From: a virus
Direction: 5' to 3' (one strand)
IMG/VR virus record: IMGVR_UViG_3300029448_006048
Span: 1-39,195 of that record
Length of the DNA: 39,195 bases
Made by a program: the position numbers and the translations under genes. Shown here piece after piece: positions 4,827 to 37,153 of the stretch (position 1 is the first letter of the stretch; each line of letters starts with the position of its first letter). Below the pieces are notes generated by a model. The model made no database searches and was not told the DNA's origin. It saw only the letters and a list, made by a program, of their open reading frames with translations.

Positions 4827-6128
4827 ATGTTAGAAGTAAGTAGAAAAGACGTTCTAAGCGATACGTTAATGGAATTTGATACTGAATCAAGATTTATTAA
4901 ATTACCTATTGATAGTTACCTAGACTTATTAGGTATTACACCTAATACTGCTCAGGTATCTCTTATCAATGCAATAAACAATCCAAAATATAGATTCGTT
5001 TGTGCAGCCATTTCTAGGCGACAAGGTAAAACTTATATTACAAATGTCATTGGACAGCTTGTATCTCTCGTGCCAAACTCTAATATCTTAATCATGTCTC
5101 CAAACTATGCTTTGTCTCAAATCTCATTTGATTTGCAAAGACAACTAATCAAACATTTTGATTTAGAAGTAGTAAGAGATAATGCTAAAGATAAAGTAAT
5201 TGAGCTATCTAATGGCTCAACAATAAGAATGGGATCAGTTAATCAGGTGGATTCAACTGTTGGTCGTTCTTATGATTTAATCATATTTGACGAAGCTGCA
5301 TTAGCAGACGGTAAAGACGCCTTCAATGTAGCATTACGCCCAACTCTAGACAAAGAAAACAGTAAAGCAGTATTTATTTCTACTCCTCGGGGAAGAAATA
5401 ATTGGTTTGCAGACTTTTGGCAAAGAGGATATAATGATGAATTTAAAGACTGGTGTGCTATAAGAGCCACCTATCATGAAAATCCAAGATTTAGTGAAGA
5501 AGATATTATAGAAGCAAAAAAAGCAATGTCCCAAGCTGAATTTGCTCAAGAATATTTAGCTGACTTTAATACTTATGAAGGTCAGGTTTGGAACTTTAAT
5601 TTTGAAGAGTGTGTGGCTGACTTAAGTCAACTAGATACTCGCAGGATGGATGTATTTGCAGGACTAGATGTAGGATATAAAGATCCTACAGCTTTATGTG
5701 TGATAGCATACGATTGGGACGAAGAAAAATATTATCTTATAGACGAATACATGGATGCTGAAAAAACTACTGAACAGCATGCAATACAAATTCAAGAAAG
5801 AATTCAAAAATATGGTATTGACTATATTTATATTGATTCAGCTGCTCAACAGACTAGATTTGATTTTGCTCAAAATTATGATATTTCAACAATTAATGCG
5901 AAAAAATCAGTTCTAGATGGAATTGGACATTGTTCTACTATAGTAGATAATAACAAATTAATTGTAGATCAAAGGTGTGCTAATACTCTGTCGGCAGTAG
6001 ATCAGTACCAATGGGATCCAAACCCTAATTTGATGAAAGAAAAGCCGAAACACAATATGGCAAGTCATATGAGTGATGCGCTAAGATATGCGCTGTATAC
6101 TTTTGAGACAACAGCGACTAGTTTTTAA
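4827..6128 (+). CDS. terL: Terminase large subunit (packaging ATPase/nuclease)
   Basis: This is a 433-residue protein that packages DNA into the procapsid and cuts it at start and end. The ATPase domain has a deviant Walker A (SRRQGKT, K68 T69), Walker B LIIFDE at 151-156 and a coupling motif ISTP at about 184. The C-terminal RNase H-like nuclease domain has the expected acidic residues: D281 in LDVGYKDP, D337 in IYIDSA and D417 in HMSDALRY. The length is normal for compact terminases. It is followed by an intergenic promoter and the HNH and portal genes. Confidence 0.97.
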   Translation: MLEVSRKDVLSDTLMEFDTESRFIKLPIDSYLDLLGITPNTAQVSLINAINNPKYRFVCAAISRRQGKTYITNVIGQLVSLVPNSNILIMSPNYALSQISFDLQRQLIKHFDLEVVRDNAKDKVIELSNGSTIRMGSVNQVDSTVGRSYDLIIFDEAALADGKDAFNVALRPTLDKENSKAVFISTPRGRNNWFADFWQRGYNDEFKDWCAIRATYHENPRFSEEDIIEAKKAMSQAEFAQEYLADFNTYEGQVWNFNFEECVADLSQLDTRRMDVFAGLDVGYKDPTALCVIAYDWDEEKYYLIDEYMDAEKTTEQHAIQIQERIQKYGIDYIYIDSAAQQTRFDFAQNYDISTINAKKSVLDGIGHCSTIVDNNKLIVDQRCANTLSAVDQYQWDPNPNLMKEKPKHNMASHMSDALRYALYTFETTATSF

Positions 6129-6572: not shown

Positions 6573-7767
6573 TAGATTTTTAGGCATCGAAAGAGAGGAG
6601 AAGTTAAATCCTGCTCAACGATACATTGGCCTAGAAGAAGGACTAGCAATAGATACTCGTGAGAAGAAAGATAATTATCGATCAGCTTACGAAGAACTAG
6701 AAGTAGTCAATCGCGCAGTCAACATGATTGTTGACGATTCTGCTGATATTAGATATACGGTAGGTACTAAGGTACAAGGAATTACACCAGTTGTAGAAAA
6801 TGTTCGAAGAACTCGTGTTGATTTGTTACTTAACAAAGAACCGAACCCTTTTCAAGATATCAATACCTTTAAGAGAAATCTAGTTATTGATTTGTTGATT
6901 GATGGAAACATATTCATTTATTATGACGGTGTCCATCTTTATCATTTACCTGCACAAAATGTTACCATAGAAGCCGATACGGATACATATGTTAGCAAGT
7001 ATGTTTATGATGGTCAAATAGACTACTCCCCAAAAGAAATTATACATATTAAGGAAAACTCATTTCATTCAATATATAGGGGAGTACCTAGACTAAAACC
7101 AGCGTACAGAACAATGTACTTAATGGATAGTATGAGAAAATTTCAGGACAACTTCTTTAAAAATGGAGCGGTTCCAGGTTTAGTACTTAAGAGCCCTAAT
7201 ACTCTTTCTGAGAAAATCAAAGAAAGGATGTTACAGGCCTGGAGCACTAGATATAATCCAAAGAACGGAGGTCGAAGACCTCTAATCTTAGATGGCGGCT
7301 TAGAAGTAGACAGTCTAACTAAAGTAAACTTTAAAGAACTGGACTTTCAACCCTCTATAGCAGCCAATGAAAAAGTAATTTTAGAAGCATTAGGTGTACC
7401 GCCGATTCTTCTAGACGGTGGGAATAATGCGAACATTAGACCTAACCATAGACTTTATTACTTGGAGACAGTTCTTCCAGTAGTAAGAAAAATAGCATAT
7501 GCCTGTGAACGGTATTTCGGATTTGAACTAGTTGAGGATGTTACTAATGTTCCAGCTTTACAACCGGAATTACGAGACCAAGCTGCATATTATGCTACTT
7601 TGGTTAATACAGGTATTATGTCACCAAACGAAGCAAGAGACGCCTTAGGAAAAGAGCCTTTAGAAGGGCACGATGACTTAAGAGTTCCAGCTAACATAGC
7701 GGGTAGCGCAGCAGACCCCACAGAAGGTGGAAGACCACCAGAAGAATCAGAGGAAAACAATGAATAA
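6559..7767 (+). CDS. Portal protein (HK97 family)
   Basis: This is a 402-residue protein forming the dodecameric DNA channel at one capsid vertex. Recognisable parts are the N-terminal YEELEVVNRAVNMIVDDSA helix region, NPFQDINTFKRNLVIDLLI, the DGNIFIYYDGVHLYHLPA strand region, a stem segment with GAVPGLVLKSP, and the [18 protein letters not shown] crown-proximal region. The C-terminus is proline/glutamate rich and disordered. Order and length fit HK97 gp3-type portals. The start overlaps the HNH gene by 14 bases. Confidence 0.93.
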   Translation: MAWYDRFLGIEREEKLNPAQRYIGLEEGLAIDTREKKDNYRSAYEELEVVNRAVNMIVDDSADIRYTVGTKVQGITPVVENVRRTRVDLLLNKEPNPFQDINTFKRNLVIDLLIDGNIFIYYDGVHLYHLPAQNVTIEADTDTYVSKYVYDGQIDYSPKEIIHIKENSFHSIYRGVPRLKPAYRTMYLMDSMRKFQDNFFKNGAVPGLVLKSPNTLSEKIKERMLQAWSTRYNPKNGGRRPLILDGGLEVDSLTKVNFKELDFQPSIAANEKVILEALGVPPILLDGGNNANIRPNHRLYYLETVLPVVRKIAYACERYFGFELVEDVTNVPALQPELRDQAAYYATLVNTGIMSPNEARDALGKEPLEGHDDLRVPANIAGSAADPTEGGRPPEESEENNE

Positions 7768-8023
7768 ACCAGCAGTATTAAAAAAACTAGTTGAATACTT
7801 TGCAGAAAAAGGACATGTTATGTCCACAGTAGAGTATAAAGCTGCAGATGACACTCCTATGAGATTCATCGTAGCAAAAAGAGCTTTTGGCTCATGGAAT
7901 CGTATGACGCAGATGGCAGAGAGACAGCTTGCCCAAATGGCACCAGCTCCAACTCCGGCCCCGGCACCAGAACCAAAGCCAAAACCAAAAGCAAAGCCAG
8001 CTCCTAAAAAAGCTGAAAAATAG
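7760..8023 (+). CDS. Small head-region protein with Pro/Ala/Lys tail
   Basis: This is an 87-residue protein. I choose the ATG at 7760, which has GAGGA just upstream and overlaps the portal stop by 8 bases, over an in-frame upstream start at 7727 that lies deeper inside the portal gene. Residues 1-58 form a small charged fold (VLKKLVEYFAEKGHVMS, then RFIVAKRAFGSWNRM), and the rest is a proline-alanine-lysine linker of about 28 residues. It sits between portal and protease-capsid genes. I do not recognise it; a minor head or assembly protein is plausible. Confidence 0.7.
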   Translation: MNKPAVLKKLVEYFAEKGHVMSTVEYKAADDTPMRFIVAKRAFGSWNRMTQMAERQLAQMAPAPTPAPAPEPKPKPKAKPAPKKAEK

Positions 8024-8031
8024 GTAAACTT

Positions 8032-10092
8032 ATGTCAGAGAAAATTTTTCATTGGTCATCTACATTTAAATCACTCGGGGAAGACGACGATGGTTCTGTC
8101 AATATCAAAGGATATGCCAGTACTAACGCAACTGACCGCGCAGGTGATGTAGTTGAACATGATGCATGGACAAAAAATGGTGGATTGGATAACTTCAAGG
8201 GTAACCCAATAATCCTATTTAACCATGACTATAACAAACCAATCGGTCGAGCAACTTCATTAGAAGTTTCCGACAAAGGTCTCGAACTTGGAGCAAGAAT
8301 CTCTAAGTCCGCAGGCGATATCAAAGATCTTATTAAAGACGGTGTACTTGGAGCCTTTTCTGTCGGTTTCAGAGTCAAGGACGCCGATTATATTGATGAA
8401 ACTGACGGGTACAAGATTAAAGACGCCGAATTATTCGAAGTGTCTGTTGTTAGCGTACCAGCTAACCAGACTGCCATGTTCTCGATTGCGAAATCATTCG
8501 ATTCTCAATCTGAATATGAGGAATGGAAAGCTTCTTTTTCAAAAAAAGAAAGTAAACAGGCTCATGCAACGGACTCAGCGAAGGCTGAAGAAATTGATGC
8601 GCCACAAGCCGTGGGTTCGCCCACTCAACAACAGGAGAGACTTATGTCTACAGAAAAAAATACTCCAAATGCTGATATCGACTTGAAAGCATTCGCTGAA
8701 GAGGTAGCAAAATCAACTGCTGCTAAAATCGCAATGCAACATGCCGAATTGAAAGCTAAAGAAGTAAGCGAAGCTGAAGAGAAAGCAGCTGCGGAAGCCG
8801 CAGACCTAGCTGAAAAAGAAGCTGAGCAAGAAAAAGTTAAAACAATCGTTGAAGTCGGAATGTCTGGAGCGGAAGCTCTTATTTCAGACGTTGAAAAACG
8901 TTTTGAAGGCAGACAAGAAGGCCTTGAAGAGATTGTTACCTCTTTGCAAACAGAACTGCAAGAGAAAAAATCTGAAATCGAAGCAATTCGTGAGTCAAAA
9001 AGAGTATTCGGTGATCGCTCAAACAGCGGTGACTGGAACAAAGCGTTTGAAGCTGATATCAACGATGCATGGACCATGGGTCTAGCAACAGGTAAAGGCT
9101 GGGATACTAAATTGGCAAATGATGTTATGGAAAAAGTTAACGCTCATTCAGGTGTTGGCGTTTCATCCGCAGATTTTGAACAAACAGTATCTACAAATGT
9201 CGAAAGAGACATTCAATTAGAGCTTACATTGGCTCCTCTATTTAGAGAAATCCCAATGCAGTCAGCTACTCAAATCATACCAATCTTACCAGATGCTGGA
9301 TATGCTGAATTTACAGCTAACCAAGCAGCTACTGGATCATCTCCACATGGTAACTTGGAAGAAAGAGGCGACACTTATGGTTCACCATATGCAGGTGTTG
9401 ACTTGACTGAAAGAACTCTTTCAACTAAAAAGCTAATTTCACAATCTTACTTAGGTAACGAAACTGAAGAAGATGCAATCTTACCGATTCTTCCTTTAAT
9501 TAGAGAGTCAATCGTAAGATCTCATGCAAGATCCATTGAAAATGCTATCCTTTTGGGTAACAACGCTGACGGTGCCTTCGGTACTGGTGGTGCGTCTTTT
9601 GACGGTCTATGGACTTTAGCTGAAGCAGATAGTGATGTAACACAATCAGCTACAGCAGTTGCTTCTGACACTGTAACAGCGTTAGAACTTCTAGCTCTTA
9701 GAAAAAATATGGGTAAATATGGAATGAACCCAAGTGAAGTTGTATATCTTGTATCACAAGGTGTGTATTTCAATCTGCTCGAAGATGCAGAATTCCAAGA
9801 CATTAACTTAGTAGGCGATATGGCTACTAAAGTACGTGGTGAGATCGGATCAGTCTTTGGCTCTAAAGTCATTGTCTGTGATGAATTCCCTACACAAGCA
9901 GCTAACATGCCAGGAGCAATTGCTCTATACGCAAGAAACTATGTAATGCCAAGACTACGTGGAGTAACCATTGAGTCTGATTACGAAGTTGCTAATCAGC
10001 GTAGAGTGCTTGTTGCTTCTCAAAGAATTGGTTTCACCGATCTAATCGATGCAGCTACTTCTAAGTGGGCATACCAATACAAAGCTAGTTAA
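8032..10092 (+). CDS. Prohead protease - scaffold - major capsid protein fusion
   Basis: This is a 686-residue protein carrying two functions that are separate genes in HK97. Residues about 5-155 are an S78-type prohead protease: H65 in LFNHDYNKPIG, S110 in LGAFSVGFR and the ELFEVSVVSVPAN strand. Residues about 205-325 are a charged coiled coil like the HK97 delta (scaffold) domain. Residues about 340-686 are an HK97-fold capsid protein (IPILPDAGYAEF, then YGMNPSEVVYLVS and VIVCDEFPT). An in-frame ATG at 8644 with a strong ribosome-binding site would yield the 482-residue scaffold-capsid part alone. An intrinsic terminator follows the gene. Capsid fold and protease motifs are clear; the dual-product model is inference. 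Confidence 0.93.
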   Translation: MSEKIFHWSSTFKSLGEDDDGSVNIKGYASTNATDRAGDVVEHDAWTKNGGLDNFKGNPIILFNHDYNKPIGRATSLEVSDKGLELGARISKSAGDIKDLIKDGVLGAFSVGFRVKDADYIDETDGYKIKDAELFEVSVVSVPANQTAMFSIAKSFDSQSEYEEWKASFSKKESKQAHATDSAKAEEIDAPQAVGSPTQQQERLMSTEKNTPNADIDLKAFAEEVAKSTAAKIAMQHAELKAKEVSEAEEKAAAEAADLAEKEAEQEKVKTIVEVGMSGAEALISDVEKRFEGRQEGLEEIVTSLQTELQEKKSEIEAIRESKRVFGDRSNSGDWNKAFEADINDAWTMGLATGKGWDTKLANDVMEKVNAHSGVGVSSADFEQTVSTNVERDIQLELTLAPLFREIPMQSATQIIPILPDAGYAEFTANQAATGSSPHGNLEERGDTYGSPYAGVDLTERTLSTKKLISQSYLGNETEEDAILPILPLIRESIVRSHARSIENAILLGNNADGAFGTGGASFDGLWTLAEADSDVTQSATAVASDTVTALELLALRKNMGKYGMNPSEVVYLVSQGVYFNLLEDAEFQDINLVGDMATKVRGEIGSVFGSKVIVCDEFPTQAANMPGAIALYARNYVMPRLRGVTIESDYEVANQRRVLVASQRIGFTDLIDAATSKWAYQYKAS
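8634..8646 (+). promoter_or_regulatory. Internal ribosome-binding site and start for capsid-only product
   Basis: GGAG at 8634-8637 is followed after 6 bases by an in-frame ATG at 8644 (Met205 of the fusion). Spacing and strength equal the best starts elsewhere in the window. It lies exactly at the boundary between the protease domain with its linker and the delta-like coiled coil. It would allow many capsid subunits per protease copy. Confidence 0.7.
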
Positions 10093-10108
10093 TAGCTTAC
10101 GTCGAATT

Positions 10109-10140
10109 TTGGTGGGGTTCATGCCCCACCAACTTTTTTT
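10109..10140 (+). terminator. Rho-independent terminator after the capsid gene
   Basis: A perfect 9-bp stem, TTGGTGGGG pairing with CCCCACCAA around a 6-base loop, is followed by C and seven T (10134-10140). It begins 17 bases after the capsid stop and is the clearest terminator in the window. Since tail genes follow without a recognisable promoter, it probably acts partially, raising capsid over tail expression. Confidence 0.92.
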
Positions 10141-10148
10141 AAAAAATT

Positions 10149-10760
10149 ATGGCAAATTTAGTAACATTACAACAGTATAAAGACTTCGCAGGACTTCAAG
10201 GTGTACAAAATGACGCAAGGATTAATGTGATTATAAGTTCCATTAGTCAACTTGTAAAAAGTTATTGTGGAACAAGCTTTGTAGATTACTATAGTAGTGC
10301 CAAAACCGAGTACTTCGACATACTCGATCCTCTTACAGATAGAGTAATGTTAGACGAAAGTCCATTAGTCGCTGTAACATCAGTACAAGAGAGAACTGAT
10401 CAAGCTAGTTCATATGTAACCCTAATCACAGAAAATTCTGACAGTAGTGGAAAATATGAATACATAGTTGATACTGTTTCTGACAGTATAATTAGAACTC
10501 AAAGCACTGGTACTAAATACTTTCCGAAAGGAAGAAAAGCTGTAAAAGTAGTATATACTGCAGGATACAGCGCAACACCAGCAGATTTAAGACTAGCGTT
10601 ATTTGATTTAATCAAATATTACTTAAAAGATGAAAGAAAAGAAAGAATGACTATTGCAGGTGCAACGGTAGAAAACCAAGTCAGTTCTAGTATAGCAGGT
10701 AACACAGGATTTCCAGATCATATCAAAAGAATACTTGATATGTACAAGATATTGAAATAA
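10149..10760 (+). CDS. Head-tail connector / adaptor protein (gp6-like)
   Basis: This is a 203-residue protein. It starts with VTLQQYKDFAGLQ and a helix-rich N-terminal region, has a central beta domain (YFDILDPLTDRVMLDESPL, then VKVVYTAGYSATPADL) and ends in a helix (FPDHIKRILDMYKIL). Short N-terminal helices, the YTAGY-PADL segment and the position after capsid fit the HK97 gp6-type connector ring. No good ribosome-binding site is seen; the gene starts just after the terminator T-run, so its expression depends on read-through. Confidence 0.8.
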   Translation: MANLVTLQQYKDFAGLQGVQNDARINVIISSISQLVKSYCGTSFVDYYSSAKTEYFDILDPLTDRVMLDESPLVAVTSVQERTDQASSYVTLITENSDSSGKYEYIVDTVSDSIIRTQSTGTKYFPKGRKAVKVVYTAGYSATPADLRLALFDLIKYYLKDERKERMTIAGATVENQVSSSIAGNTGFPDHIKRILDMYKILK

Positions 10761-32083: not shown

Positions 32084-35000
32084 ATGGCTTATATAGGTAA
32101 AAGACCAACAGATTCCTTTCCAATTAATAATGCAATTGTTAGTAGTCTTATTGCTGCAAACGCAGTAGGCTCATCAGAAATAGCTACTAATGCAGTATCA
32201 ACTTTACAAATAGCAGATAATGCAATAACAGCAGTAAAAATTGCTGAGAACATAATATCTACTAGAGAGTTAGCTGCAAATGGAATTACTTCAGCACAGA
32301 TAGCACAAAATAGTATTCTTACTAGACATATAGATGACGCACAAGTAACAGCAGATCAATTAGCTTCCGATGCAGTAATAACAGCAAAGATACTAGATGC
32401 TAATGTTACATCAGATAAAATAGCAAACAATGCTATTCTAACTCAACATATAGATGACAACCAAATAACAACAGACCAGATAGCAGATAATACTATTGCT
32501 ACAGCAAATATAGCCGACAACGCTGTAGACGGAACTAAGATAGCTTCTAATAGTATACTTACAAGACATATAGATGATGACCAAATAACTGGAGATCAAC
32601 TAGCAGATGCTATTGATGTAGTAACTTCTGTCGGAGTTGGTGGTGGCTCTACAAATGGTGTAGTCATTGAGCAAGGTGCAATTAAAATTAAAAATGGTGG
32701 TACACAGTCCTACATAGACTTATATTGTGAATCAAGTAATGCACATTATTTAAGAGTACAAGCACCAGCACATGGTAGCTTTAGTGGTAACCCAACAGTA
32801 ACTTTTCCAGCTACAGCAGGTACTATAGCTTTAACAAGTGACGTAATAGGTACAGAGGCAACACAAGATATTGTAGGAGCAATGTTCTCTAGCAATACAG
32901 AAACAGGCATAGCCGCAACTTATGAAGATGGAGATGGAACTATAGACCTAGTTATTGGTGATAACTCTATTGTAGCTTCCATGATTGCAGAAAATGTAAT
33001 CACTACTCGAGAACTAGCGGCTAATACTATTGCAACAGGTAATATAGCAGATAACGCAGTAGACTCAACAAAACTAGCACAAAATTCAATTTTAGCAAGA
33101 CATATACCTTCTGGTGGAATAACAGCAGACCATCTTGCAGCAACCTCAGTAACAGCAGCCTCTTATGGTTCTGCTACTGCAATTCCTACTTTCACAGTAG
33201 ACGCTGATGGAAGATTAACAGCAGCAGGTACTGCAGCTATAAGTTCAGCGCTAACAGTAGCTGCTGACTCAGGAAGCAATGATACAGTAACTATAGGAAC
33301 AGATACACTTACATTTGAAGGAACTGCTAATGAAATAGCAACAACCGTTTCAAATAATAAAATTAATGTAGCTTTACCAGACAATGTTGTTATTGGTGGA
33401 AACTTAACAGTTACAGGTAACTACACAGTAAATGGTACTACAAGTACTAACAATGTTACTAACATGGTTATAGCAGATAACCTTATCGAGCTAAACAACG
33501 GAGCAGGCTCAAATGCAAATGATAGCGGACTAGTAATAGAAAGAGGTAGCACAGGAGATAATGCTATCTTCATGTGGGATGAATCCGCAGATAAGTTCGT
33601 AGTAGGAACAACAACAGCAACAGGAACAAGTACTGGTAACTTAACAGTTACTACAGGAACTCTTGTAGCAAATGTAGAAGGTAATGTAACAGGTAACTTA
33701 ACAGGTACAGCTTCAGCAATCGCAGATAACTCTGTCACTTCAGCTAAGATAGTAAATGGCACTATTGTAGCAGCTGATATTGCAAATAATGCAATTTTAA
33801 CACAGCACATAGATGACAACCAGATAACAACAGATCAGATAGCTGCAAACACTATTGCAACAGGAAATATAGCAGACAATGCCGTAGACGGAACTAAAAT
33901 AGCGCAGAACTCAATACTTACCCGACATATTGATGACGCACAAGTAACAACAGATCAGCTTGGAGCAGACGCAGTTACAGCTGCTAAACTGGCTGATGAT
34001 GCAGTAGTTACAGCTAACATAGTAGACGCCAATGTGACAACAGCAAAAATAGCTGATGACGCAGTCACACTAGCTAAAATGGCAGGGCTTGCTCGTGGTA
34101 AAATAATAGTTGGAGATGCAAGTGGTAATCCAGTAGCTTTAGCATTAGGCTCTAGTGGCACAGTATTGAAATCAGACGGAACAGATTTAGCTTTTGCAGC
34201 AGATTCAGGACTAAGTACTGAACAAGTACAAGACATAGTTGGTGGCATGTTCAGTAGTAATACTGAAACAAATATAACAGCAACTTATCAAGATGCTGAT
34301 GGCACAATAGATTTAGTTGTTCCAAACACTTTAACAGGTGTTACAGAATTAGGTACACTAACAACTCTTACAGTTGATGATATAAAAATTAATGGTACAC
34401 AAATAGGACACACCTCAGATGAAGATGCAATGTCAATCGCATCAAATGGTGTTGTAACTTTTACTCAGATACCAGTCTTACCAGCTAATTCAATAGACTC
34501 AGATTTATATGTTGACGGAAGTATTGATACAGCTCATTACGCTGCTAACTCAATTACAGGAACTGCAATCGCTGATGATTTAGTACTTAGTGGTACTGGA
34601 GCACTTAGATTACCAGATGGAACAACAGCTCAGAGACCTACGGGTGCAGCAGGTATGTTCCGATATAATACTACTTTATCAAGATTTGAAGGGTATACAA
34701 GTGAATGGGGAGAAATAGGTGGAGCAGGCGCAAGTACATTTACAAGAAAAGAATTTACAGGAGATGGCAGTACAACAGCTTTTACACTAGACTCAGCTCC
34801 TTCAGATGAAAATGATTTAATAATATTTATTGAAGGTGTATACCAAAATCAAGACGCATACTCAGTAAGCGGAACAACTTTAACAATGGCCGACGCACCA
34901 GTAAGTGGTCGTGGTCTTGTAGTTTATCATGTAAGTGCAGCAGTAGCTGGAGCAGGCATGGCTGTCAATACAATGACAGGAGATAATAGTGATACTACTC

Positions 35001-37153
35001 TTACACTAGCCGTTGCACCAGGACATGTAAATAATGTACAAGTATTCTTTGATGGTGTATATCAAAAAGCTGATACATATAGTGTAAGTGGAACAACACT
35101 TACATTTGGAGTAGCGCCTCCAACAGGAGTACTAGTAGAAGCTAGAACTCACGCACAGACAGAAATTAACACATTCCCAGCAACAGGAATATCAGGACTA
35201 ACAGCCGTTACACCGGTAGCAGGCGACCACATGATGATTCTTGATGCTACAGATTCTGCACTTAAGAAAGCAGACGTAAAAGATATAATGGCAACAGCTG
35301 TAAGTATTACTTCAGCCGCAGACGCAGTTGCTATGACTTTTGACAGTTCAGAAAATGCTACATTTGCAGGCAATATTAGTTTAGCCGACAGTAAAAGAGC
35401 TAAGTTTGGTGCAGGCTCAGACTTACAGATTTATCATGATGGTTCTAATAGTCATATATATGATGCTGGAACAGGTGGATTACACATATCCACAAATCAA
35501 TTTAGAGTTTATAACAGTGCTACAGACGAATTAAGTATAACTGCAGCTGAAAATGGAGCTGTAGTTCTTTATTACGATAATTCTAAAAAGTTTGAAACAA
35601 CATCTTATGGTGTAGATATAACTGGTAGGCTTGTAACAACAAGTCATATTGATGCACCTGATGACGCAAGAATACGATTAGGGGATGGCGATGATTTACA
35701 GATTTATCATGATGGTTCTAATAGCTTTATTCAAGAGACAGGTACAGGAAATCTGTATATAGATGCAACAAGTTCAATTATATTTAGGGATTATGGCTCT
35801 GCTGAAGAAATGGCTAAATTTATTAATGATGGAGCAGTACAACTTTATTATGATAATACTTTAAAATTCTTAACATCTAGTACAGGGATTAATTTACCTG
35901 TTGATGGTGACAAGATTCAATTTGGTGCTAACAGCGAAGTACAATTAGTCCACGAACATGATGTAGGTTTGAGTTTAAATGGTGGTGGTGCTTTAATCCT
36001 AGCTGATAACAACACGGATGATACTAATAAAACATCTTATCTTGTAGCACGACAATATGATTCTGGAACAGAAACAGAAGGTTTCTTAACAATACAAACT
36101 TTTGGAAATTCATCAAGTAATAGAATAGACATAGGTGGAGGTACTTCACAACGCAATGCTTCTACTGCAATAGACTTCTATACTGCCGCAAATACTACAA
36201 CACGAACAGGTACAAAACGTTTAGGCATCGATAGCAGTGGTATAACAGTAACAGGAGAAGTAGCAGCTACTAGTTTAGATATATCTGGAGATGTAGATAT
36301 AGACGGAACATTAGAAGCTGATGCTATAACAGTAAATGGTGCTACTCTAGCTGAGACTATATCAGATACAGTCGGAGCAATGGTAACAAGTAATACTGAA
36401 ACTGGTATTACAGTAGCTTATCAAGATGCGGATAATACTTTAGACTTTACTATTGGAACACTTAACCAAGATACTACAGGTACAGCAGCTACAGTAACAG
36501 GAGCAGCTCAATCAGCTATAACAAGTTTAGGTACTTTAACTACTCTTACAGTAGACGACATAACTATTAACGGTTCTACTATATCTGATGGTGCGGATTT
36601 AACACTTGATCTTGGTGGAGATTTAATTGTTGATGTTGACGGAGATAATATTTGGTTTGATGCAGCAGGAACAAGATTCTTGTCAATTTCACAAGTTTCT
36701 TCAGATGTTTATATTGGTTCAGAAGTACAGGATAAAGATATAATATTTAGAGGTAACGATGGCGGTTCAACCATCACTGCTCTAACACTTGATATGTCTA
36801 ACCATGGACAAGCTATAGTAGAAAAGTCAGCAAGGATCAAACAAGTAGCTTTAACTTCATCAAGTAATGCAGTAGCATGGGATGCCGCCGCAGCAGCAAA
36901 TGCATATCATGTTACAACAGAAAATACAACATTCTCTGCACCAAGTAATGCAGTAGAAGGAGCAATCATACAAGTAGAACTAGCACAGGGCGGAACAGCA
37001 AGAACAATAGCGTGGAATACAGTCTTTGAATTTGCGGCAAGTACAGCACCAACTGTAACTGCTACAGCAAACAAAACAGATATTTTTACATTTAGATATA
37101 ACGGTAGCGTCTGGCAAGAAATAGGCAGAGTCCAAAACCTAGCACAGACCTAA
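32084..37153 (+). CDS. Giant repetitive tail fibre, 1689 residues
   Basis: The N-terminal YIGKRPTDSFPINNAIVSSL is an attachment-type start. Residues about 25-185 and 550-665 are ladder repeats of about 12-17 residues with the theme IADNAI-x-KIA-x-NSILTRHIDD-x-QIT, which should build an elongated trimeric shaft. Three copies of an SNTETGI-YxDxDGTIDL module occur near residues 263-295, 717-750 and 1427-1460. Around 915-1010 lie two EFTGDGSTTAF-type beta domains. Near 1115-1235 are two LQIYHDGSNS domains, a cyanophage-fibre hallmark. The C-terminus (AFSAPSNAVEGAIIQVELAQ region) ends as a small beta cap. No cleavage peptidase or sugar-degrading domain was recognised. It would serve as the main host-contact fibre. 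Confidence 0.87.
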   Translation: MAYIGKRPTDSFPINNAIVSSLIAANAVGSSEIATNAVSTLQIADNAITAVKIAENIISTRELAANGITSAQIAQNSILTRHIDDAQVTADQLASDAVITAKILDANVTSDKIANNAILTQHIDDNQITTDQIADNTIATANIADNAVDGTKIASNSILTRHIDDDQITGDQLADAIDVVTSVGVGGGSTNGVVIEQGAIKIKNGGTQSYIDLYCESSNAHYLRVQAPAHGSFSGNPTVTFPATAGTIALTSDVIGTEATQDIVGAMFSSNTETGIAATYEDGDGTIDLVIGDNSIVASMIAENVITTRELAANTIATGNIADNAVDSTKLAQNSILARHIPSGGITADHLAATSVTAASYGSATAIPTFTVDADGRLTAAGTAAISSALTVAADSGSNDTVTIGTDTLTFEGTANEIATTVSNNKINVALPDNVVIGGNLTVTGNYTVNGTTSTNNVTNMVIADNLIELNNGAGSNANDSGLVIERGSTGDNAIFMWDESADKFVVGTTTATGTSTGNLTVTTGTLVANVEGNVTGNLTGTASAIADNSVTSAKIVNGTIVAADIANNAILTQHIDDNQITTDQIAANTIATGNIADNAVDGTKIAQNSILTRHIDDAQVTTDQLGADAVTAAKLADDAVVTANIVDANVTTAKIADDAVTLAKMAGLARGKIIVGDASGNPVALALGSSGTVLKSDGTDLAFAADSGLSTEQVQDIVGGMFSSNTETNITATYQDADGTIDLVVPNTLTGVTELGTLTTLTVDDIKINGTQIGHTSDEDAMSIASNGVVTFTQIPVLPANSIDSDLYVDGSIDTAHYAANSITGTAIADDLVLSGTGALRLPDGTTAQRPTGAAGMFRYNTTLSRFEGYTSEWGEIGGAGASTFTRKEFTGDGSTTAFTLDSAPSDENDLIIFIEGVYQNQDAYSVSGTTLTMADAPVSGRGLVVYHVSAAVAGAGMAVNTMTGDNSDTTLTLAVAPGHVNNVQVFFDGVYQKADTYSVSGTTLTFGVAPPTGVLVEARTHAQTEINTFPATGISGLTAVTPVAGDHMMILDATDSALKKADVKDIMATAVSITSAADAVAMTFDSSENATFAGNISLADSKRAKFGAGSDLQIYHDGSNSHIYDAGTGGLHISTNQFRVYNSATDELSITAAENGAVVLYYDNSKKFETTSYGVDITGRLVTTSHIDAPDDARIRLGDGDDLQIYHDGSNSFIQETGTGNLYIDATSSIIFRDYGSAEEMAKFINDGAVQLYYDNTLKFLTSSTGINLPVDGDKIQFGANSEVQLVHEHDVGLSLNGGGALILADNNTDDTNKTSYLVARQYDSGTETEGFLTIQTFGNSSSNRIDIGGGTSQRNASTAIDFYTAANTTTRTGTKRLGIDSSGITVTGEVAATSLDISGDVDIDGTLEADAITVNGATLAETISDTVGAMVTSNTETGITVAYQDADNTLDFTIGTLNQDTTGTAATVTGAAQSAITSLGTLTTLTVDDITINGSTISDGADLTLDLGGDLIVDVDGDNIWFDAAGTRFLSISQVSSDVYIGSEVQDKDIIFRGNDGGSTITALTLDMSNHGQAIVEKSARIKQVALTSSSNAVAWDAAAAANAYHVTTENTTFSAPSNAVEGAIIQVELAQGGTARTIAWNTVFEFAASTAPTVTATANKTDIFTFRYNGSVWQEIGRVQNLAQT
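32161..32619 (+). repeat. First ladder-repeat block of the giant fibre
   Basis: Imperfect in-frame units coding NAI/NSI, then a T-x-HIDD-x-Q(I/V)T or KIA-x-N core. HIDD occurs three times in this block. Protein similarity between units exceeds DNA similarity because third codon positions vary. Confidence 0.8.
33727..34077 (+). repeat. Second ladder-repeat block of the giant fibre
   Basis: This repeats the first block after about 1.3 kb, including the 17-residue stretch ILTQHIDDNQITTDQIA at 33794-33844, identical in protein to 32435-32485 but with seven synonymous base changes. It ends with A-rich units (DDAVVTANIVDANVTTAKI). Confidence 0.8.
35423..35724 (+). repeat. Exact 29-base direct repeat inside duplicated LQIYHDGSNS domain
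   Basis: The 29 bases at 35423-35451 recur identically at 35696-35724, an offset of 273 bases (91 codons). They encode the core LQIYHDGSNS plus flanking bases of two successive copies of one fibre domain. Confidence 0.85.

Follow-up and report, generated by a model that had tools for sequence, protein, structure and literature searches.

A conserved internal start site in the protease-capsid fusion gene of a marine phage group with T5-like head genes

The fused gene and its genomic setting

The window, meaning the whole stretch of DNA analyzed here (39,195 bases, positions 1 to 39,195 of IMG/VR virus record IMGVR_UViG_3300029448_006048), carries a T5-like head module, as recognized from its open reading frames (ORFs) and profile searches. 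The module comprises genes for a terminase (at 4827), an HNH-like endonuclease (6201), a portal (6559), a protease-capsid fusion (8032), a head completion protein (10149), an ORF without family match (10761), a tail terminator (12269) and a major tail protein (12787), and this order, from the terminase through the tail genes, is the one annotated in T5-like isolates. Between portal and protease lies a small Pro/Lys-rich ORF of 98 amino acids with a GTG start (7727-8023), for which profile searches gave no convincing family match; it occupies the slot of a Hoc-like decoration protein in T5-like phages. The window and its relatives form a clade that is a widespread and very common uncultivated marine phage group with T5-like head genes.

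The fusion gene is an uninterrupted plus-strand ORF of 686 amino acids and 74.4 kDa (8032-10092), which bears out the proposal of an earlier note, made from the sequence letters, that a single frame joins an S78-like protease, a delta-like coil and an HK97 capsid domain; Pfam, NCBIfam and structure matches agree with it. Its first part (8032-8541) encodes the prohead protease domain and the C-terminal helix of that domain, matching Pfam Peptidase_S78 (PF04586) at residues 19-154 (E 7e-18, 65.8 bits, cut-off 21) and NCBIfam proheadase_HK97 (TIGR01543; 76.4 bits, cut-off 59). PF04586 is matched by all 74 relatives used for alignment. H65 and S110, named in the same note, are where it placed them and are invariant in the 74; from family knowledge and that note we take them to be the catalytic His and Ser of a predicted S78 protease. 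A linker follows (8542-8682), variable in the alignment and predicted from model confidence to be disordered. The delta (scaffold) domain, about 163 amino acids with long helices, spans 8644-9132, its end placed by comparison with T5, and the mature capsid domain of the HK97 fold, about 319 amino acids and with a start placed by homology, spans 9133-10089.

The capsid part matches Pfam Phage_capsid at residues 403-668 (E 3e-6) and, in phmmer searches against solved structures, the DT57C capsid 8ho3 (E 1.3e-56) and the T5 capsid 8zvi (E 3.6e-53). Fold comparison by VIA-align gave Z scores of 21.5 for 8ho3 and 20.1 for 8zvi, in a PDB comparison that covered almost only residues 349-686. By both sequence and fold, this is a capsid protein of the T5 pb8 type; the clade lacks the separate capsid gene that also belongs to that type, a difference of arrangement and not of homology. 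Residue 2 of 5tjt_A aligns with fusion residue 369, and the mature capsid protein would thus by T5 homology comprise about residues 368-686 (34.4 kDa). A structure model built on the 74 sequences (an earlier one built on 11 reached a pLDDT of only 42.5) places in order the protease, a disordered stretch at residues 171-220 with pLDDT below 50, long delta helices at residues 218-293 and 298-324, and the capsid fold; the delta region matches the T5-like major head protein.

Two RNA features accompany the gene on the plus strand. Directly after it lies a strong intrinsic terminator with a 10-pair hairpin and a T-run (10109-10139), and a comparable hairpin is found 3' of the gene in 55 of the 61 relatives with enough sequence, its position kept and its sequence varying. 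A weak Rfam match to the Pseudomonas rpsL leader (10061-10188; 29.3 bits against a cut-off of 70) overlaps the terminator and is probably due to chance. Within the protease coding region, a candidate 12-pair hairpin lies at 8359-8409 (arms 8359-8370 and 8398-8409). Its pairing holds in 98.3% of the cells compared, with no two-sided change; since changes occur on one side only, they are compatible with a structure without proving it. Synonymous (third-base) variation at 8326-8440 is reduced to about half that of the gene on average, and the codons CTT 8347, TTT 8356, GGT 8365, AAG 8377 and GAA 8398 are frozen; an overlapping frame was rejected as the cause of this low variation, the other frames being closed in at least 71 of 73 relatives.

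Relationship to the T5-type head module

T5-type phages (Demerecviridae) encode the protease pb11 and the capsid precursor pb8 separately, and the window's fusion is homologous to the two over nearly its full length, at 33% identity and in one BLAST piece. Both arrangements share the same capsid N terminus, a homologous Shine-Dalgarno (SD) sequence and ATG, and the capsid fold (Z 20 to 21.5 against the window). They differ in that the T5-type protease gene ends in a stop of its own ahead of the capsid ATG, whereas the clade of the window lacks that stop and keeps one frame in all complete members. Separate protease and capsid genes are found in the T5-like phages HMD-P2, VCPH and phiR2-01 and in four IMG/VR loci (L332-L335), and in T5-like phages the protease stop, the SD sequence and the capsid ATG are all found in a space of a few tens of bases. 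The protease and capsid genes of HMD-P2 even share one frame, so that one stop lost or gained separates the split from the fused arrangement. The fused arrangement either arose from the T5 arrangement or gave rise to it.

An internal start at the domain junction and its conservation

Inside the disordered linker, at the boundary of the protease and delta domains, the sequence GGAG (8634-8637, plus strand) is followed after a 6-nucleotide spacer (AGACTT) by an ATG (8644-8646) that is in frame with the outer ATG at 8032 (a distance of 612 nucleotides, or 204 codons). Initiation there would yield a nested capsid precursor of 482 amino acids and 52.2 kDa (8644-10092). The earlier note had described this site, its position at the domain junction and the 482-residue remainder, and its description is exact to the base. 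Of 143 ATGs lying in frame inside the large genes of the window, none has a better predicted anti-SD energy than this site, which shares the top value of -7.4 kcal/mol. The in-frame ATG at 33572, within a tail-fibre-like gene (32084-37153), has an equally strong SD sequence (-7.4).

Searching viral and genome contigs for relatives gave 306 ORFs with both domains, which after removal of duplicates left 272 distinct fused sequences with 42-94% identity to the window. The fusion is present in every clade member that is complete across the junction, and members with a protease only are cut by the contig end. An assembly error or a stop lost in a single contig was accordingly rejected as its source, the same fusion being found in IMG/VR and MAG contigs alike. 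Two relatives deviate elsewhere, one with an in-frame stop in the capsid part (L066) and one with a frame break downstream of the junction (L163), and both look like sequence errors.

A Met stands at the nested-start column in all 272 sequences, and GGAG precedes it in 271, with a spacing of 6 nucleotides in 270 and 9 in one; the sole exception (L164) has AGGA at 7 nucleotides. At three other Met columns, taken as controls because they are present in at least 70% of fused relatives, GGAG or AGGA occurs upstream in 0 of 266, 7 of 191 and 7 of 264 sequences, against 272 of 272 at the nested start. These comparisons rule out a chance origin of the site. The search for a conserved internal start that the earlier note had recommended thus finds it kept in all fused relatives, near and far, and the loss from close relatives that the note had named as refuting its proposal is not seen. 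Nested in-frame genes of the lambda C/Nu3 type are marked by a conserved SD sequence and start codon inside the gene, where two domains meet, and the site has both.

The nested product can be aligned over its whole length with the capsid precursors that T5-like phages encode separately, and its Met falls on the annotated major capsid protein start column of Vibrio phage VCPH and Salmonella phage HMD-P2. The aligned N termini are MSTEKNTPNADIDLKAF in the window, MSGNTPKIDLDAL in VCPH and MSDTNIDFGKL in HMD-P2. It has been proposed that ribosomes slow down at SD-like codons within genes, and the GGAG, lying as it does at a domain boundary, might serve as a pause that lets the protease fold before capsid synthesis, without any initiation. 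Such a pause would require neither an invariant ATG at 6 nucleotides nor an N terminus homologous to that of a separate T5-like capsid protein, and we regard it as highly improbable.

Selection on the mRNA

Codon -4 relative to the nested Met contributes its third base as the first G of GGAG, which allows selection on the protein and on the mRNA to be told apart. This codon appears as CAG, AAG, ACG, ATG, TTG, GAG and CCG, encoding seven amino acids, and its third base is G in 272 of 272 sequences, compared with 38% predicted from usage. On a tree of the 272 sequences, codon -4 switched its amino acid at least 24 times while its third base never changed, a pattern shown by no other of the 573 codons tested. 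Among the 226 columns with at least as many amino-acid changes, the next-lowest third-base count is 17 and the median is 50; the tree is approximate and the changes counted on it are non-independent events, but the difference is very large. GAG occupies codon -3 in 270 of 272 sequences and makes up 270 of the 271 Glu codons there, against an overall GAG share of 30% among Glu codons and 65% at the conserved Glu column that ranks next in GAG content. Since the amino acid of codon -4 varies while its third base is fixed, selection acts on the mRNA and not on the protein, and the internal site is under nucleotide-level selection.

These patterns bear on two further alternatives. If only the full-length fusion were made, E202-M205-S206 could be a protein motif, such as a self-cleavage site, and a protease would sit on every subunit. 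E202 and M205 are indeed the only invariant residues of the linker among the 74 relatives, and Gordonia phage fusions that have no start at the corresponding place exist. Selection on the protein can neither fix a third-base G through at least 24 amino-acid changes nor explain the preference of GAG over GAA at codon -3; the 6-nucleotide spacing is fixed as well, and each of about 775 subunits, if the shell is T5-sized, would be burdened with a 22-kDa protease and linker. We therefore consider production of the fusion alone very unlikely. The internal start could also be a harmless relic of once-separate genes, as T5-like separate genes have an SD sequence and ATG at the homologous place. A relic would decay, yet third-base changes here number zero where equally variable columns have a median of 50, and the third-base test on the tree rules this reading out, leaving it a next to negligible probability.

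Two probable products from one gene

With the internal site conserved and under nucleotide-level selection, the best reading is that the gene very probably gives rise to both a fusion protease of 74 kDa and a capsid precursor of 52 kDa. In the explanation that we favor as a whole, with two starts, co-assembly, a tethered protease and delta cleavage, and to which we assign a probability of roughly 0.88, one transcription unit with one frame would be read from two starts. Initiation at 8032 would produce the fusion, in which a flexible linker joins the protease to scaffold and capsid, and initiation at 8644 would produce a plain scaffold-capsid precursor, the equivalent of T5 pb8. The two would co-assemble into the procapsid. 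Because the delta domain lies inside the shell, facing inward, the protease of the fusion would hang inside as well, delivered and, as the architecture suggests, anchored by its own capsid domain. It would then cut delta off all subunits, at a putative site near residue 367/368, and free itself, directly or via the linker.

Each head needs a small but definite amount of protease within its shell during assembly. We found no answer in the open-access literature to how phages with fused genes avoid one protease per subunit, and the clade offers one that is visible in sequence. The numbers in related systems are 415 major capsid proteins to about 60 proteases in the HK97 prohead and 540 to about 90 in D3 (PMC12749128), and T5 has 775 copies of pb8, cleaved by pb11 (PMC5292684). 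The capsid gene of the clade should be annotated as two proteins.

The earlier note had further proposed that little fusion and an excess of capsid precursor are made, and here the evidence divides. In favor of it, the outer start region (8022-8034, plus strand), with AGGT before the ATG at 8032, has a weak SD sequence of -3.7 kcal/mol, so that the inner site is the stronger in the window; among 256 relatives the inner SD is stronger in 173, equal in 17 and weaker than the outer in 66. Against it, a simple correction for local RNA folding favors the outer start in 44 of 65 cases and the inner in 21, although SD and folding estimates of this kind ignore translating ribosomes that already open the RNA. 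Open RNA at the inner start was looked for and is absent, the site folding about as stably as the gene average. We still infer that capsid precursor is likely made in excess over the fusion.

Two products may also be made in a ratio that is not set by translation, through mRNA processing, short transcripts from an internal promoter, or cleavage of the fusion by itself. The inner start is the stronger one in part of the relatives only, the surrounding RNA is average to stable, and the conserved candidate hairpin lies 235 nucleotides upstream of the inner start, all of which would fit. Sigma-70-like promoters, by contrast, do not exceed chance in the protease-region stretch (3 matches, 5.0 expected), and the fixed SD sequence and ATG would be required in any case. 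Control by such means, which overlaps with the favored explanation of two starts on one mRNA, seems to us unlikely.

Other protease-capsid fusions and nested starts

Shaw and Murialdo, cited in PMC8508860, reportedly described in 1980 a nested in-frame start inside the protease gene of phage lambda (C/Nu3). Lambda resembles the window in having a protease gene whose in-frame internal start yields the downstream domain alone. It differs in that its nested product is the scaffold, its capsid protein E being encoded by a separate gene, and in that gpC is an S49-type and not an S78 protease. Fusions of protease and capsid have been published for Arthrobacter AM/AU/AN, Gordonia and Rhodococcus RRH1 phages (PMC5513430) and for thaumarchaeal proviruses (PMC6563490). 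MD8-like fusions have likewise been published (PMC8508860), and in Pseudomonas phage MD8 a single gene, that of gp5, covers the protease, scaffold and capsid functions. Thus protease-capsid fusions and the nesting of lambda C/Nu3 are already known, and what is new here is a nested start that yields the capsid protein; we found no description of one in a protease-capsid fusion in the open-access literature.

As in the window, all three functions are in one gene in MD8 gp5, and an ATG preceded by CAGGAG (M220) lies just past the protease domain. Unlike in the window, the MD8 protease is lambda-type, there is no BLAST similarity, and the strongest SD-like site is elsewhere (M185). The accessible part of PMC8508860 reports no nested start in gp5. 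The window protein also shows no BLAST similarity to the Arthrobacter, Gordonia and Rhodococcus fusions, and it scores 51.2 bits against the NCBIfam model of prohead protease/major capsid protein fusions (NF045541), below the cut-off of 525.

These fusions share with the window an S78-type protease and a capsid in one gene and are annotated as single products. Among Gordonia and Rhodococcus phages, RRH1, GMA5, McGonagall, Rahul and GRU3 have an SD sequence and ATG at a shared junction column, which is the best or tied-best internal start in four of the five. Strong start candidates at the junction are also seen in CapnMurica, Shiba, Correa and Lactococcus P092. Three Gordonia phages, SallySpecial, Emperor and EricDab (L355, L356 and L357), have no start at the junction column, the stretch being deleted, so that a fusion can apparently work without a start there. 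Repeated independent use of nested starts is plausible on the few sequences compared. The chances seem to us about evenly balanced that nested capsid starts evolved repeatedly and are common to protease-capsid fusions in general, each fusion being a protease that delivers itself, in a dose governed by two starts competing on one mRNA; such starts would have escaped notice since annotations list a single product for each gene. Many actinophage genes carry the label "major capsid and protease fusion protein" and can be checked in the same way.

The fusions L339-L348, from Arthrobacter, Curtobacterium, Gordonia, Streptomyces and Lactococcus phages, have up to two start candidates in the linker, before KTVxDV and NVFDQ, each with an SD-like sequence upstream.
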